From Fibrobacter succinogenes (GTDB taxonomy: Bacteria > Fibrobacterota > Fibrobacteria > Fibrobacterales > Fibrobacteraceae): a stretch of DNA of 64,000 bases. The notes below the pieces were generated by a model. It saw only the letters and a list, made by a program, of their open reading frames with translations, made no database searches and was not told the DNA's origin. Positions within the stretch are counted from its first letter, which is position 1; every line of letters starts with the position of its first letter. Below, piece after piece: positions 1,702 through 57,791 of the stretch. The DNA lies in NCBI GenBank assembly GCA_902756345.1, contig CACVQR010000006.1, positions 248,001 to 312,000 on the forward strand. The letters are read 5' to 3'. The position numbers were made by a program, and so were the translations under genes.

Positions 1702-1908
1702 TTACCTAAACGGACTAGGGTTTTTGTAAAAAAACTTGCTCTTTCAAACCTATCCCGACCGGCATAGGTGGTTCGTGAACCATAAACGACTTGTATTAAC
1801 GAGTCGTGTTGGCGAAAGCGAGGCGATATCGTAGGTTCTTACATGAAATAGAGCCGAGCGGTCTGTAAAGGGGGAAGTTTCCCCCTACTTGCAGCCTTGC
1901 CCCAGTGT

Positions 1909-2048
1909 CATCCTAGGCCCTTCGATAAACTCAGGGTAAACTCCGTCGAAGGATCTAGGGCAAGTCTTCCAGTACCCCCTCGCCTAAGGGGCTCCGCCCC
2001 CTAAAACCCCCGGCTAGCAATGTGGAGTGTGGAATGTGAAGTGTGAAA
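1909..2048. repeat. Spacer with dispersed repeats (GTCATCCT...GAAGGATCT, CCCC-rich palindrome, GTGAAATG array)
   Basis: From left to right: a GTCATCCT...CCCTTCGATAAACTCAGGG...CGAAGGATCT element (about 1909-1963), a CCTAAGGGGCTCCGCCCCCT palindrome (about 1983-2004), and a GTGGAGTGTGGAATGTGAAGTGTGAAATG array (about 2020-2048). The same families recur at 4897, 13550, 36532 and 56786. No gene was seen in 1700-2160. Confidence 0.7.
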
Positions 2049-10147: not shown

Positions 10148-11866
10148 ATGATGTCCCCTTTAAAAGTCCTCTTAAGTATCATCAGCCTGTTCGCGGTGCT
10201 GGGCTTTATCGCCATCATCTACCCCGATGACGGAATCCATGTTGGCGACACCACGCTCCGCTACCCGAAGCTCACCGAAATCTTCGTAAAGCAGTCCGCC
10301 GGCGATTCGCTTAGCGATTCTACCCAGGGCGACCCCGAAGAAGCTATCCGTGAGATGATGGAAGCAACCAAACGCAAAGAGTTTGCCGCCTTTAGCGACT
10401 CGCTCAAATTCTATGAGGACTTTTTTGAAAAGGGAAGAACGCGCTTTGATTTGCCGAACAACGACGCCACGTGGTTTGACCGATTCTTCTTGCACCTGGA
10501 GCTAGCCTCACTCGATTCGAACGTTGTACACGTCGTGCATTACGGTGATTCACAGCTTGAAGAAGACCGAATCTCGGCCACCATTCGCGAAGATCTGCAA
10601 GATGAATTCGGTGGTGCAGGCCCGGGCATGATGCCCGCCATTATGACCGTGCCGTCTATGACTACTAGCCATGCAGGCGTCGGCGCCCTTTCGCGCTACA
10701 TTCTGTTTGGGCCCAAAGAAGACGAAGCTGAACATACACGCTATGGACCTTTGGCCCAGCTCGCCAAGCTTGAAGGCGAAGCCTCCATTACCATCCAGCG
10801 CCGCAAGGAACGCAAGAAACAGTTCAGCCATGTGGGCGGTTACAGCACCATTCGCCTCCTCACAAACAAGAACGCTCGCCTCAAGGTCAGACTCAACGTA
10901 AACCAGACCGTCGTAGACACCGTGGGCCAAGAAGAAGACGGCTCTCCGAAAGAAAAGCGCTCTACCAAAGTGGTCGACGCCGGCGAACCGGTTATCGACA
11001 CTTACAACAAACTCAAAGTTTTCACCTGGAAACTAAAGGACACCACCTCCATTGCCAAGATGTACCTTTCGGGCAACGCCGAAGTCTACGCCATTTCGGC
11101 AGACGGTGCTTACGGTGTCGCCGTCGACAACGTGGCCATGCGCGGTTCTTCGGGTACGATATTCCATCGCATCGACTCTGAACTTCTGGCCGAATCTTAC
11201 AAGGCCATGAACGTAAAACTCATCATCATGGAATACGGCGGAAACTTGGTGCCAAGCATCAACTCCGGCAACATTGAATGGACCAAGAAAATCATCACGC
11301 GCCAGATTCAAGCCATTCAAAAGGCGAACCCCGACGCCGACATCTTGTTTATTGGCCCCGCCGATATGGCTCGCCAAAAAGACGGCCAGTGGCAGACGTA
11401 TTCCGGCCTAGCGATGACAATCAAGGCCCTGCGTGAAGTCGCGCTCGAAAACGGCGCCGCCTACTGGGACATGCACCGCGTGATGGGCGGGAACGGAGCC
11501 ATGATCAAGTGGGTGAACAAGGATCCCGCACTCGGGTTCACCGACCACATTCACTTTACGCGCCGCGGTGCCGCCTACATGGGCGACCTGTTCTGCTCGG
11601 CACTGCGCATGCACTACGACTACTTCAAGTTCCGCGACCGTCACAACATCAGCGACGAAAAATTGAAGGAACTGCACCAGTGGAGCGCCGAAAACAAGCC
11701 TGCCCCCAAGCCTGTCGCCAAACCAAAGCCCACCGCCAAGCAAGCAGTTAAACCAGCCAAGCCAAGCTCAAACAAAGCCGTAAAGGCAAATTCTGCAGCA
11801 AAGGCAGCCCCGGCAAACAGAAAAGCTGATTCGAAAGATTTAAACAAAGGAGCGAAGAAAAAGTGA
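10148..11866 (+). CDS. Membrane-anchored SGNH/GDSL-type protein of an O-acylation operon
   Basis: 572 residues. One N-terminal membrane segment (about 6-24) leaves the rest outside the cytoplasmic membrane. The SGNH fold is shown by block I HYGDSQLEED (S135) and block V TDHIHFTRRG with D466 and H469. The C-terminal 50 residues are a lysine/alanine/proline tail that may bind the wall or polysaccharide. With a second SGNH protein (overlapping by 4 nt) and an MBOAT acyltransferase downstream, it probably moves or removes acyl (acetyl) groups on an extracellular polysaccharide, as AlgX/AlgJ or DltD partners do. The substrate is unknown. ATGATG gives two possible starts one codon apart. Confidence 0.8.
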   Translation: MMSPLKVLLSIISLFAVLGFIAIIYPDDGIHVGDTTLRYPKLTEIFVKQSAGDSLSDSTQGDPEEAIREMMEATKRKEFAAFSDSLKFYEDFFEKGRTRFDLPNNDATWFDRFFLHLELASLDSNVVHVVHYGDSQLEEDRISATIREDLQDEFGGAGPGMMPAIMTVPSMTTSHAGVGALSRYILFGPKEDEAEHTRYGPLAQLAKLEGEASITIQRRKERKKQFSHVGGYSTIRLLTNKNARLKVRLNVNQTVVDTVGQEEDGSPKEKRSTKVVDAGEPVIDTYNKLKVFTWKLKDTTSIAKMYLSGNAEVYAISADGAYGVAVDNVAMRGSSGTIFHRIDSELLAESYKAMNVKLIIMEYGGNLVPSINSGNIEWTKKIITRQIQAIQKANPDADILFIGPADMARQKDGQWQTYSGLAMTIKALREVALENGAAYWDMHRVMGGNGAMIKWVNKDPALGFTDHIHFTRRGAAYMGDLFCSALRMHYDYFKFRDRHNISDEKLKELHQWSAENKPAPKPVAKPKPTAKQAVKPAKPSSNKAVKANSAAKAAPANRKADSKDLNKGAKKK

Positions 11867-13536
11867 AACACGTACTCCTTGGTATTGCGCTACTCACGCT
11901 TTCCGCTTTTGCAAAAGACATGCCGACAGCTCCCGGCAGTTTTTCCATCGACATTTCTCGCTACGACTTTATCGACACGACACAGAACGTAATCAAATTC
12001 CCCAAGGGCAACGCCTCGTTCAACGCCTTCTTTAACAAGATGGATACGCTCGTGTTCGAAAACCGCGGGCAGGTTCGCATTCTGCACGTGGGCGGTTCGC
12101 ATTTGCAAGCCGACGTAATCTCCGGCCGTATTCGCGAGCACCTCATTAAGGAATACCCGGGCGCCTCTGCCGGCCGCGGGTTCGTTTTTCCTTATTCCGC
12201 AGCCCGCACCAACACGCCTGCGAGCTATGCCAGCGCCTACAAGGGCATCTGGGACATGAACAAAAACGTGCAGCGTGAAATCAAGAAGCCGCTCGGCCTG
12301 CTTGGCATTGCCGTGAGCACCAGCGACCCGCGTTCCGAAATCACGCTGTTCCTCGACAAGTACAACTCTACCCCGATTTGGGGCGAAACCAAACTCAGAC
12401 TTTTTGGTTACAGTGACAACAACGACGTAGTTCCTGTACTGCGCGTCGATTCGACCGACATTTACGGCATTCTCGATTCCGCAAGCCAGAGCTACGTGTT
12501 TACAAGCCCGCGCCCGATTGACACCATTCAAATCGCTTTCCGCTGGATCGATTCCTTGAAGCAGGCCGAGATTTCCAAGTTCATTACCGACTCGCTTTTC
12601 CAGGATTCTATCGCCCGCGCCAAAGAAGATTCCATCAAGAAGGCAACCGGCGATACCGCCCAGAACAAGAAAGATTCCAACGTGATTCCGGCAAAGATTC
12701 CGAACAACGTTGCCTTGCCCGAAGTCGCCCGCGATTCCATGTTCCAAGGTGAATGCGACGTTCTCGACACGGCATGCCTGCGTCGCGAAGAGGCCAAGAG
12801 CAAATCCCGTAGCTGTGCCGAAAAGTTGAACAAGCCCGCAGTCAATTACGCCGAGGGCGAAATCGACGCCACCAATTACGCCAACGAACATTGCATCGAA
12901 CAAGCCGCCGTACCCGACTCTGTCAAGAAGAACGCTCGTCCGCGCTTTACGCTTACCGGCATTCTCACCGAAACCGACGCTCCGGGCATTACCTACACGG
13001 GCGTAGGCATCAACGGCGCAAAGGTTCACGACTACTTTGAAGAAGTCTGCCCGCAGTTCGAAAAGGAACTTTCATTCTACAAGCCCGACCTCGTCATTTT
13101 TGCAATCGGCATTAACGATGCAAACGTGGAAAAGTTTAACGACAAGCAATTTAAAGACGACTACGACAAGCTCATTGCCCGCATCAAGAAAGTGAACCCG
13201 AATGTGGCGATTATTTTCGAGACCAACAACGACATGTATCGCAAGGTCAAGAAGAAACGTTTCGTGCAGCACCCGAACGGCGATGTCGCCCGCAAGGCAT
13301 TCTTCGCCCTGGCCGAAAAGCACAAAGCTGGCGTTTGGGACAAGTTCGGCATTATGGGCGGCCTCGGCTCCATGGCCAAATGGGAGAAAGCCGACCTCGC
13401 CAAAGCCGACAAAGTGCATTTCAAACTTTCGGGCTACAACCTCCTTGGCGATCTGTTCTACAAGGCTATCATCAACTGCTATCAAGAACACATCGCCAAC
13501 CTCCCCGCCGAAAAAAGAAAGGAAGAAATAAAATAA
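11863..13536 (+). CDS. Secreted SGNH-type protein, second of the O-acylation operon
   Basis: 557 residues. It starts at a GTG within the stop of the previous gene (GTGA overlap, translational coupling). A signal peptide ends near SAFA. SGNH motifs: block I HVGGSHLQADV (S79), a GIND block (VIFAIGINDANVE) and block V ADKVHFKLSG with D516 and H519. Between about residues 230 and 340 is a charged insertion without clear family. It probably works with the upstream SGNH protein and the downstream MBOAT on exported polysaccharide. The serine motif is GGS instead of GDS, so activity is likely but unproven. Confidence 0.8.
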   Translation: MKHVLLGIALLTLSAFAKDMPTAPGSFSIDISRYDFIDTTQNVIKFPKGNASFNAFFNKMDTLVFENRGQVRILHVGGSHLQADVISGRIREHLIKEYPGASAGRGFVFPYSAARTNTPASYASAYKGIWDMNKNVQREIKKPLGLLGIAVSTSDPRSEITLFLDKYNSTPIWGETKLRLFGYSDNNDVVPVLRVDSTDIYGILDSASQSYVFTSPRPIDTIQIAFRWIDSLKQAEISKFITDSLFQDSIARAKEDSIKKATGDTAQNKKDSNVIPAKIPNNVALPEVARDSMFQGECDVLDTACLRREEAKSKSRSCAEKLNKPAVNYAEGEIDATNYANEHCIEQAAVPDSVKKNARPRFTLTGILTETDAPGITYTGVGINGAKVHDYFEEVCPQFEKELSFYKPDLVIFAIGINDANVEKFNDKQFKDDYDKLIARIKKVNPNVAIIFETNNDMYRKVKKKRFVQHPNGDVARKAFFALAEKHKAGVWDKFGIMGGLGSMAKWEKADLAKADKVHFKLSGYNLLGDLFYKAIINCYQEHIANLPAEKRKEEIK

Positions 13537-13549
13537 GGATTTGCAGCAG

Positions 13550-13920
13550 TGTCATCCTGAGTGAAGAACCGAAGGTTCGTAATCGAAGGATCTAAAAATA
13601 TGAGAAATGATTACTTTACATATATAATGTCTAATCAAACTAATTCAACAATATATGTTGGAGTAACAAATAATATTGAAAGACGTGCATTAGAACATAT
13701 TAGTGGTAATGGTGCAGAATTTACATCGAAATATAAAATCAATAAACTTGTTTATTTTGAAAGATATACAGAAATAAAAGATGCAATAGCAAGAGAAAAA
13801 CAATTAAAAGGTTGGAAAAGAGAAAAGAAAAATAATTTGATTAACAAAATGAACCCTGAATGGAAAAACTTAATGATGGATTAGATCCTTCGACTCCGTT
13901 TCACTTCGCTCAGGATGACA
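13550..13920 (+). mobile_element. GIY-YIG nuclease gene bounded by inverted copies of a dispersed repeat
   Basis: The left end (13550-13594) reads GTCATCCTGAG...CGAAGGATCTAA. The right end (about 13883-13920) is the inverted form TTAGATCCTTCG...CTCAGGATGAC. The nuclease ORF fills the space exactly: its ATG follows 5 nt after the left copy and its TAG is part of the right copy. The unit is much richer in A+T than its surroundings and splits a polysaccharide acylation operon. This is an inferred element; no target-site duplication was established. Confidence 0.6.
13600..13884 (+). CDS. GIY-YIG domain endonuclease (UPF0213/YhbQ-like)
   Basis: 94 residues, single GIY-YIG domain. The GIY-YIG pair is represented by YIM near residue 8 and YVGVTNNIERR; EHISGNG, FTSKYKINKLVYFERY, AIAREKQLKGWKREKK and MNPEWKNL follow the usual small-nuclease layout. 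The family cuts DNA; the cellular role of these stand-alone proteins is poorly known. The gene is AT-rich compared with neighbours, suggesting transfer. A longer in-frame reading from 13561 would translate the left repeat and is less likely. Confidence 0.88.
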   Translation: MRNDYFTYIMSNQTNSTIYVGVTNNIERRALEHISGNGAEFTSKYKINKLVYFERYTEIKDAIAREKQLKGWKREKKNNLINKMNPEWKNLMMD

Positions 13921-19373: not shown

Positions 19374-19411
19374 GACCCTGAGCGTCCTCAGGGTGACAAT
19401 CAGGGTGACTC
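19374..19411. repeat. ACCCTGAGCGTCCTCAGGGT palindrome upstream of the Wzi-like gene
   Basis: CCCTGAG-CGTC-CTCAGGG followed by a partial second GGGTGAC copy. It is related to the GTCATCCTGAG repeat family and occupies the spacer before the Wzi-like start. Confidence 0.5.
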
Positions 19412-37689: not shown

Positions 37690-37905
37690 CGAGAAGCCGA
37701 TGCTGACTTTCGTCAGCATGACAGTAGGCAAACAATGCTGATGCTGACCGAAGCCTGTCCTGAAAAGTGTCGGCCAAGAAAGCCTTCGCAAGAGTGTGCA
37801 AATGAGTGTCGCATTGACAAATTTATTTGTCGATATGACCGAATGAAGCCACGGACGCCATAGGCGTCAACTCTGAGCTGGGTTCCCTCCCGCATTTTAA
37901 CAAGA
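37690..37905. repeat. Repeat-filled spacer between rfbD and the xylanase gene
   Basis: GAAGCCGATGCTGACTTTCG followed by TCAGCATGACAG, GCTGATGCTGACC, GACAAATTTATTTGTC, GGACGCCATAGGCGTCAACT. These relate to the GTCATCCTGAG and GGACGCC families. No gene was seen. Confidence 0.55.
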
Positions 37906-56328: not shown

Positions 56329-57791
56329 TTGATCATTTTATCGAATACGGCGAAGTATTCGTCGCGATATGCCAGGTGCCAGCGGGAATCTTGCTGCAAA
56401 GCACGCAGAAGTGTATCCCAGCGGGCATAGTACTGCAGCGGGAATAGGGCGCGGTCTATGCCTAAGGAATCGGCGTCATGCATAAACAGGGCGGGGTCTT
56501 TGGCGTAATTCAGATACCGTTCAAAGAAATCCGCCGTCTTAAGGATAAACCTGCCATCGATGTAAATGGAATCAGTCGGGTTCATTAAAGCCAGGTAACC
56601 GCCGGCACGATCATCGTTAAAAAGCTTACCCTTATGCGGATGATTTTGCATCCAGTCTGTCGCATCAACCGGCACACGCTGGCAAGCGACCATGGAGATG
56701 TCGTAAGCAGAAAGTGAACGAACCCAGAGACCGAAGATAAAAAAAGTAGGAAGTAGGAAGTAGACAGTAGACAGTAGGCGGCAGGATGTGAAATGTGGAG
56801 TGTGAAATGGGAAATTAGGCAATGTCGCTAAAAGTACCGGCAGGAACAATACGAAATTACGTTCGGCAATAAGGACAAGGATTGCTGTCGCCAAGAGAGA
56901 GACATTCAAAACATCCGGCCTGCGATTCTTATACAAGCGCCAAATGGCAAGTCCCATTCCTGCTAGGCAGAGCAAAATCATCAGCACACATTCCAGTGTA
57001 TTCTCCCCCTCCATCAAAAGCGTGAACGGAGAACGGTTCTCGGCGATTTCGCTTGCAAAGATTGCCGCCGAGGGCGAAAGTCCAAGCAAACGGTCCAAGA
57101 GTCCAAACGGGTACAGGAATAACGCGAGGCCCTCGCGATGCAAGAACGGCATCGCAAACAATGCAACAACAAAAGCTCCCCGCAACGCAAACGCCTTCCG
57201 AGAAAACTTATCACCCGACTTACGCGAATTCCAAATTCCGGCAGTCAACACAAGCACCGCAAACAGCGGGCCCAAAATGTACAGGCCCTGCGTTTTGCAC
57301 CAAGTCCACTGTATGGCAAGAATAAGAACCGCAAAAAGCGTGTTCACCGGGGTCAAGCGACTGTTCGCAAACAACCTCGGCAAGACATTCCAATAAATCC
57401 CGAGAAACAATAGCGAAAACAGCACCGGACGCATTTCAAAATGATAGCGGAATACAAAAAGCAGAACAACTGCAACTAGAGACCGCCTCATACAACTAGA
57501 GATTGCCGCGGTCCTTCGGACCTCGCAATGACATTTAGGATTTTCAGGCAACAAGAAAAGTGCAAACACGACGCCCCAAAGAATCGCCTTGAATGCCACC
57601 AAGAGCGGAGCGCCACCCAAACCGTAGACAAAGCCTACCGCCAGTTGAAAATATTCATGCACGTTCACAACGGGCGTGCGGACAGGTGTCCACGTAGTCA
57701 CCCATTCGCGAGCACAAGCCAAATGCCACCAGATGTCGGTATCGGTCAGCGGAAAAATCGCGAACAGAATGACAAATACAGCAATTACCAT
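56325..57791 (-). CDS. Polytopic membrane protein, GT-C glycosyltransferase-like, with repeat-derived inserts
   Basis: 488 residues with about 10 membrane segments. The N-terminal TDTDIWWHLACAREW matches the DTDxWWHL motif of GT-C-like membrane proteins, and the C-terminal soluble part has FNDDRAGGYLALMNP and SIYIDGRF, typical of the same group. It may use lipid-linked sugars on the outer face of the membrane; the substrate is unknown. It overlaps TIGR02171 gene C by 7 nt, so it is translated with it. Residues about 84-100 (KCHCEVRRTAAISSCMRR) and 324-349 are translated dispersed repeats. Confidence 0.75.
   Translation of the reverse strand: MVIAVFVILFAIFPLTDTDIWWHLACAREWVTTWTPVRTPVVNVHEYFQLAVGFVYGLGGAPLLVAFKAILWGVVFALFLLPENPKCHCEVRRTAAISSCMRRSLVAVVLLFVFRYHFEMRPVLFSLLFLGIYWNVLPRLFANSRLTPVNTLFAVLILAIQWTWCKTQGLYILGPLFAVLVLTAGIWNSRKSGDKFSRKAFALRGAFVVALFAMPFLHREGLALFLYPFGLLDRLLGLSPSAAIFASEIAENRSPFTLLMEGENTLECVLMILLCLAGMGLAIWRLYKNRRPDVLNVSLLATAILVLIAERNFVLFLPVLLATLPNFPFHTPHFTSCRLLSTVYFLLPTFFIFGLWVRSLSAYDISMVACQRVPVDATDWMQNHPHKGKLFNDDRAGGYLALMNPTDSIYIDGRFILKTADFFERYLNYAKDPALFMHDADSLGIDRALFPLQYYARWDTLLRALQQDSRWHLAYRDEYFAVFDKMIK
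56744..56818. repeat. GTAGGAAGTAGACAGTAG and GTGAAATGTGGAGTG array inside the GT-C-like gene
   Basis: AAGTAGGAAGTAGGAAGTAG, ACAGTAGACAGTAGGCGGC, then GATGTGAAATGTGGAGTGTG. Two families side by side, read in frame on the minus strand. Confidence 0.65.
57490..57535. repeat. CATTGCGAGGTCCGAAGGACCGCGGCAATCTC repeat inside the GT-C-like gene
   Basis: On the minus strand: TCATTGCGAGGTCCGAAGGA, CCGCGGCAATCTCTAGTTGT. A typical dispersed element of the GTCATTGCGAGG...GCAATCTC type, translated as CHCEVRRTAAISSC. Confidence 0.65.

Follow-up and report, generated by a model that had tools for sequence, protein, structure and literature searches.

A single-domain GIY-YIG nuclease gene between inverted GTC-tagged palindromes in Fibrobacter succinogenes and other bacteria

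An earlier note on the window, the 64,000-nt stretch of Fibrobacter succinogenes DNA analyzed here, described a small GIY-YIG nuclease gene fitted between inverted copies of a dispersed repeat and raised the question of whether such a nuclease might be the engine of the short repeats of this genome, in parallel with REP sequences and their RAYT transposases. The observation itself was confirmed and its scope proved much wider than first seen, and the reading built on it is partly supported.

The gene and the repeats that bound it

As had been claimed, a 94-codon gene lies between inverted repeat copies: the open reading frame runs from the ATG at 13600 to the TAG ending at 13884 and encodes a product of 94 amino acids. 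The features of the window are as follows.

1907-1956, plus strand: solo GTC-tagged repeat of a related type, GTCATCCTAGG...GAAGGATCT (motif scan)
11863-13536, plus strand: SGNH-type gene, left flank of the insertion site (family as named in the earlier note)
13551-13593, plus strand: left terminal repeat, GTC tag preceded by T (TGTC), tail CT
13600-13884, plus strand: class A GIY-YIG nuclease gene (ORF, Pfam match, and GC3)
13883-13919, minus strand: right terminal repeat, inverted, its inner end AGATCCTTCG overlapping the stop codon
13928-15778, plus strand: MBOAT-type gene, right flank (family as named in the earlier note)
19375-19397, minus strand: solo GTC-tagged repeat of a different type, GTCACCCTGAG..CAGGGTCAGCA (motif scan)
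37700-37722, minus strand: solo GTC-tagged repeat GTCATGCTGACGAAAGTCAGCAT (motif scan)
57502-57532, minus strand: solo GTC-tagged repeat, TTGCGAG type (motif scan)

The stop codon (TAG, 13882-13884) shares bases with the inner end of the right repeat, as the note had it, and the ATG stands 6 nt (AAAAAT), not 5 nt, past the end of the left repeat. The Pfam family PF01541 matches the protein with an E value of 7.6e-17 (61.8 bits against a gathering cut-off of 22.6) and spans 74 of its 94 residues, which means that nearly the whole protein is a GIY-YIG domain. Residues Y8, Y19, G21, R29, and E66, the catalytic Tyr, Arg, and Glu among them, are invariant in the class A alignment A1; the PF01541 score and these catalytic residues place the protein in the GIY-YIG nuclease superfamily, and the Pfam and PDB matches clearly predict a GIY-YIG fold. 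The GC content at third codon positions (GC3) of the gene is 0.16, compared with 0.67 for the MBOAT gene.

The left repeat consists of a 5-bp outer stem (ATCCT/AGGAT) and a variable inner stem (GAACC/GGTTC). Of the two gene-less relatives that had been reported in the window, the one at 1909 (1907-1956) is indeed of a related type, and the one at 19374 (19375-19397; GTCACCCTGAGGACGCTCAGGGT, tail CAGCA) belongs to another type, which we found flanking a different GIY-YIG subclade. The repeats at 37700-37722 and 57502-57532 are, like that at 19375-19397, of types unlike those bounding the window gene. In the 3.36-Mb genome, GTCATCCTGAG occurs in 40 copies, 19 on one strand and 21 on the other, and its reversed control in none.

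In Fibrobacter repeats of the GTCATCCTGAG..GAAGGATC type, the inner stem is hypervariable between copies yet remains base-paired, and G-U pairs are nearly absent. Among 29 CTGAG-type units of 42 nt each (a further unit was excluded for its shifted stem), 99.4% of the cells were paired, and changes on both sides of the stem were found in 53 cells, compared with 13.8 in shuffles; the six variable pairs (174 cells) included 2 G-U and 2 unpaired cells. Because the search pattern fixed the ends of the units, the outer stem gives no evidence of pairing. The scarcity of G-U pairs suggests that the palindrome matters, or arises, at the level of DNA, and inner stems that are hypervariable yet base-paired point to selection on DNA hairpins or to hairpin creation. 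Inner stems of other types (TTGCGAG) appeared to be likewise hypervariable but base-paired.

Association of class A genes with GTC-tagged palindromes

We sorted the small GIY-YIG genes of 61 Fibrobacter genomes into classes, of which class A (Y-x-G-V-T) is that of the window gene, and defined the repeat motif as GTC, a stem of at least 5 bp starting with A, and then C. This 5-bp arm followed by C replaced an earlier motif with a perfect stem of at least 6 bp, which had missed the window's repeat and the CTGGAG type. Flanks were scored solely in inverted orientation, with the GTC tags outermost. Many of the loci come from metagenome assemblies, and most tests were made with no correction for phylogeny. 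In Fibrobacter, the motif lay upstream of 49/62 class A genes, downstream of 45/62, and on both sides of 37/62, rates that are lower bounds, since the search is blind to degenerate repeats; random windows of the same regions gave 2.4% and permuted tags 0 to 3 of 62. Both flanks carried the motif in only 3/340 other ORFs nearby (Fisher 4e-32), and in none of 22 small GIY-YIG genes of other classes and none of 7 UvrC genes of Fibrobacter. The stand-alone GIY-YIG proteins of UPF0213 (PDB 1zg2 and 1ywl) share, by sequence, the same fold and single-domain size, but the Fibrobacter class that resembles them (MYILKCSDGSYYTGSTR) was repeat-flanked in 0/11 cases.

The association extends far beyond the genus. 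A search with the class A alignment against genomes of bacterial species yielded 80 loci, chosen as best matches and not at random, from more than 10 phyla (Fibrobacterota, Bacteroidota, Bacillota, Spirochaetota, Chloroflexota, Planctomycetota, Cyanobacteriota, Pseudomonadota, and Chlorobi among them). Of these loci, 51 had the motif upstream, 47 downstream, and 35 in both positions, against 2.4% of background windows and 0 to 6 loci with permuted tags. GTC is invariant in the motif, permuted tags are not enriched, and the preceding base is T or C in 88/94 and 93/96 flanks. The sequence GTCATYBYGAG was dispersed in all 26 non-Fibrobacter genomes tested, in nearly all of them far above its reversed control. 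Alphaproteobacterial class A loci had at least one flanking repeat in 21/30 cases, and these flanks are classical CGTC-REP sequences, e.g., GTCATCCCGCCGAAGGGCGGGATCCA and GTCATTCCCGCGAAAGCGGGAATCCA. One CGTC-REP type, compared across 190 alphaproteobacterial genomes, occurs mostly where the genome has a class A gene (14/19 against 40/171; p = 2e-5). The partner of the nuclease is not the single repeat that the note had proposed but a whole superfamily of GTC-tagged palindromes.

Orthologues free of repeats are a minority: outside Fibrobacter, approximately one-fifth to one-third of class A genes lack the motif on either side. A Rhizobium gene (L245) has no motif, and on R. tumorigenes plasmids the gene is present in all close relatives and the motif is absent. 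Aligning flanks in inverted orientation did not discriminate true from mismatched flank pairs, the motif being common to all units. In a separate class of small GIY-YIG genes (YMLRCKGNRIYTGYAVDV; L256, L258, L261, and L264), a single repeat, GTCATGCCGGCCTCCGAGCCGGCATC, stood upstream in several species and none downstream, which probably reflects one shared event.

Repeats of this kind are common in these genomes, and 6 to 8% of other ORFs nearby carry the motif on one flank; a gene could thus come to lie by chance between two intergenic terminators or REPs. We regard such a coincidence as extremely improbable in view of the two-sided counts (37/62 against 3/340, and 0/22 for other small GIY-YIG genes) and of their recurrence in more than 10 phyla. 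The association is an established observation, and the enrichment of the flanks that the note had asked for emerged very strongly.

Gain and loss of the unit

In Fibrobacter, the subclade of the window gene occupies several unrelated sites, and homology between these sites ends at the outer ends of the repeats, which establishes the boundaries of the unit. Between the window unit and L078, for instance, homology spans positions 1438-1809 of locus L001, and the repeats occupy 1440-1808. Whether the stop codon is TAG, TGA, or TAA, it is fused to the same inner repeat end. No target-site duplication was visible at the units compared, and no near-identical units at distant sites, which would indicate recent transfer, were present among the loci compared.

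The note had further stated that the gene splits an operon, and the relatives bear this out, as the SGNH and MBOAT genes are 5 to 115 nt apart in genomes without the unit. The unit occupies this site in 9 of the 31 species examined, with at least six gains or losses on the MBOAT tree, and the site is empty in the closest relative, G003. A gene fixed at this place without repeats in an ancestral operon was not found in this comparison. In G005, the left repeat alone stands at the site, and in G059, whose flank is nearly identical to that of G061, a scar, CAGGATGACACTTT, is all that remains of the unit. In Sinorhizobium Ak57, the interval between gltA and lpxB contains an intact and a truncated unit; a relative has a single fused palindrome there. 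The window's own genome (G000) holds further class A remnants on contig 24 (L002, 1366-1737; L005, 1396-1608; and G000:C24:23715-23888), one with an internal TGA and two truncated; this graveyard of units is flanked by other repeat types, GTCATGCCGCAC..GTGCGGCATCTCC and GTCTTCCCGCAC... These comparisons show gain and loss of the unit.

In six close pairs of species, the class A gene was less diverged at third positions than MBOAT (e.g., 0.09 versus 0.28), and its GC3 was 0.16 to 0.40, compared with 0.67 to 0.88 for MBOAT. Low divergence and the GC3 contrast are as expected of a module with its own history. Of the description of the insertion as recent or tolerated, what can be said is that the unit is patchily distributed and that its gene is less diverged than its neighbor between close species. 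In G045, two class A genes of equal score and identity lie in tandem 762 bp apart (L069; G045:C1:275126 and 275888), which suggests local duplication of a unit.

These data also bear on the idea that the nuclease is a housekeeping enzyme that processes or resolves REP hairpins and cruciforms, so that REP-rich cells keep the gene and its own REP-rich flanks serve regulation. Slx1 and UvrC are GIY-YIG enzymes with structure- or damage-specific nuclease activity, and such activity, together with stems that keep their base pairing at the DNA level, speaks for it. A housekeeping gene would, however, be expected to have fixed neighbors, whereas class A genes are found at many locations, have a patchy distribution among close species, differ sharply from a host neighbor in GC3 (0.16 to 0.40 against 0.67 to 0.88), and leave pseudogenes behind; we consider this explanation improbable.

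Gene-less elements, known repeat systems, and a possible mechanism

A Ruminococcus metagenome-assembled genome (G082, locus L125) revealed two-ended elements without a gene. Its tags occur mostly as inverted pairs 45 to 51 bp apart, and almost every pair combines an ATCCT with an ATTCT end, as do the unlike ends of GIY unit L125. The resulting gene-less elements of 56 to 62 bp, e.g., GTCATCCTGAGCGCAGCGAAGGATCTTTAAGATTCTTCGGCAAGCCTCAGAATGAC, are present at many loci, and one of them lies inside an operon gap that is short and free of the element in five relatives. Having both ends of an autonomous element and no gene, they conform to what defines a REPIN or MITE and, as REPINs do to RAYTs, stand to the GIY unit as a miniature non-autonomous element does to its parent. 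At three loci of this genome (L277, L285, and L280), the outer half-repeat occurs in tandem, as direct copies of 21 to 25 bp, up to five in number, that adjoin the gene-less elements on one or both sides. Many of the repeats in Fibrobacter occur singly and not as two-ended elements.

The type of repeat covaries with the nuclease subclade. Repeat similarity between genomes was 0.62 at protein identities below 55% and 0.79 at 65 to 75% (Mantel test, p = 0.001 for the genus and 0.004 for the diverse set), and units of the same genome with divergent proteins had unlike repeats. Since similarity follows protein identity and divergent genes of one genome differ in their repeats, the repeat type tracks the nuclease and not the host; part of this correlation is owed to inheritance of the whole unit. 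The intact fraction of repeats was 0.65 with the gene and 0.52 without it (p = 0.005, no phylogeny correction). Copy number was weakly tied to a matching subclade in Fibrobacter (median, 49 versus 33 without; p = 0.036), and three genomes, G068, G077, and G005, hold 84, 73, and 37 copies of GTCATCCTGAG and no class A gene, which runs counter to a simple engine.

Tagged REPs with an AT-starting stem, a CGTC or TGTC tag, and a CCA tail were defined as CGTC-tagged REPs by Di Nocera, De Gregorio, and Rocco (2013; PMC3733652), who included Neisseria dRS3 and Rickettsia RPE-4 and RPE-6 among them. According to that study, they are dispersed, often as inverted dimers and heterodimers, with stems of 8 to 9 bp and loops of 4 to 5 nt; transposase genes are never flanked by them, and the superfamily "apparently lacks a dedicated transposase." The text of PMC3733652 does not mention GIY-YIG, and in the open-access literature, to which our search was confined, we found no link of GIY-YIG proteins to REP, RAYT, dispersed, or inverted repeats. 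The class A flanks share the unpaired CGTC/TGTC tag directly before an A-T-starting stem and a short tail (CCA or similar). The 8- to 9-bp AT-starting stem, 4- to 5-nt loop, and CCA-fitting tail are present in the alphaproteobacterial flanks, which are exactly such sequences, and in the GGGCTTGACCC-type flanks, and the Neisseria class A gene sits among dRS3-like copies. The CTGAG type of Fibrobacter and the window is longer: inside its 5-bp outer stem lies another, hypervariable stem, and the tail is CTA. By these features, the flanking repeats fit as members of, or very near to, the CGTC/TGTC-tagged REP superfamily, with the CTGAG type as a longer variant.

The class A units resemble the REP/RAYT and REPIN systems (Nunvar 2010, PMC2817692; Bertels and Rainey 2011, PMC3116915) in having a small nuclease gene, inverted tagged palindromes, dispersed palindrome pairs without a gene, and a repeat type that matches the enzyme type. 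They differ in the unrelated GIY-YIG domain and in a GTC instead of a GTAG tag, RAYTs being tyrosine transposases (HuH) from the IS200/IS605 group with GTAG-tagged REPs as substrates. A RAYT proper was rejected, as the protein has PF01541 in place of a HuH/Y1 transposase domain and its repeats lack the GTAG tag. The anatomical side of the parallel that the note had drawn thus holds (inverted tagged palindromes, the stop codon within the repeat, gene-less pairs, and the subclade match), and the engine role is what we infer from it, mindful of the 84 repeat copies in G068, which has no class A gene.

Our preferred reading, with a probability of roughly 60%, is that the window feature is one copy of a minimal mobile element whose nuclease acts at the repeats and which host machinery copies. 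A single-domain GIY-YIG gene between two inverted GTC-tagged palindromes would be the whole content of the element. Most likely, the tag together with an extruded or single-stranded hairpin would be what the nuclease recognizes and cuts, both at the two ends of its own unit and in relatives that lack the gene. As GIY-YIG chemistry hydrolyzes DNA and joins no strands, copying or movement of the unit, and of its derivatives without a gene, would fall to host repair or replication. The two-ended gene-less copies of Ruminococcus and the single repeats of Fibrobacter would represent non-autonomous derivatives and relics, and recognition, cutting, and a causal role in the spread of the repeats are predictions of this scheme.

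The strongest rival holds that the palindromes spread by other means and that the GIY-YIG gene is a homing-like parasite. GIY-YIG homing endonucleases are a well-known class; those of the I-TevI type share the catalytic domain and a mobile, selfish distribution with class A. Class A units differ from them in having no intron, intein, or separate DNA-binding domain and in lying between two inverted palindromes. The repeats would be abundant, harmless landing sites, recognized by a nuclease that is not their engine, and repair would copy the gene into cut repeats. Plentiful repeats in gene-free genomes agree with this, as do the single left repeat at the identical site in G005, the single fused palindrome of the Sinorhizobium relative, and a weak NCBIfam similarity of the class A protein to group I intron endonucleases. 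However, a gene that had homed into one repeat should be found between the split halves of that repeat, in direct order, whereas the units have two complete inverted repeats with unlike stems. Solo and fused sites may equally be deletion products, as the G059 scar illustrates, and a mere landing site would not yield the Ruminococcus elements, which carry both ends. We therefore hold the homing explanation to be a possible but clearly less probable one than a mobile element that acts at its own repeats. Gene-free, repeat-rich genomes would be explained by past activity followed by gene loss, and the homing model would explain them equally.

A broader proposal, to which we would give even odds, is that in most phyla the class A nucleases are the dedicated mobilizers of the CGTC-REP superfamily, a second REP system that evolved apart from RAYT. 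Hairpin-ended DNA would then be moved by a hydrolytic nuclease and host repair, with no transposase. The class A nuclease is the first concrete candidate for what spreads the CGTC-REPs, which comprise many families in alphaproteobacteria and have been listed without an enzyme since 2013, and a named, purifiable candidate opens the enzyme question to direct test. If the proposal is true, REP-type systems have two or more separate origins, with nucleases that are unrelated, and the patchiness of small genes annotated as "GIY-YIG nuclease family protein" and lacking a role would be explained.

On a Planktothrix agardhii plasmid (L249), the class A gene (1995-2279), with paired repeats nearby, has a type IIL restriction enzyme gene on one side and the DISARM gene drmA on the other. 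In Draconibacterium and Maribellus (L117, L119, and L143), the GIY-YIG domain lies in an open frame of approximately 600 amino acids, compared with the usual 95, which possibly represents a fusion.
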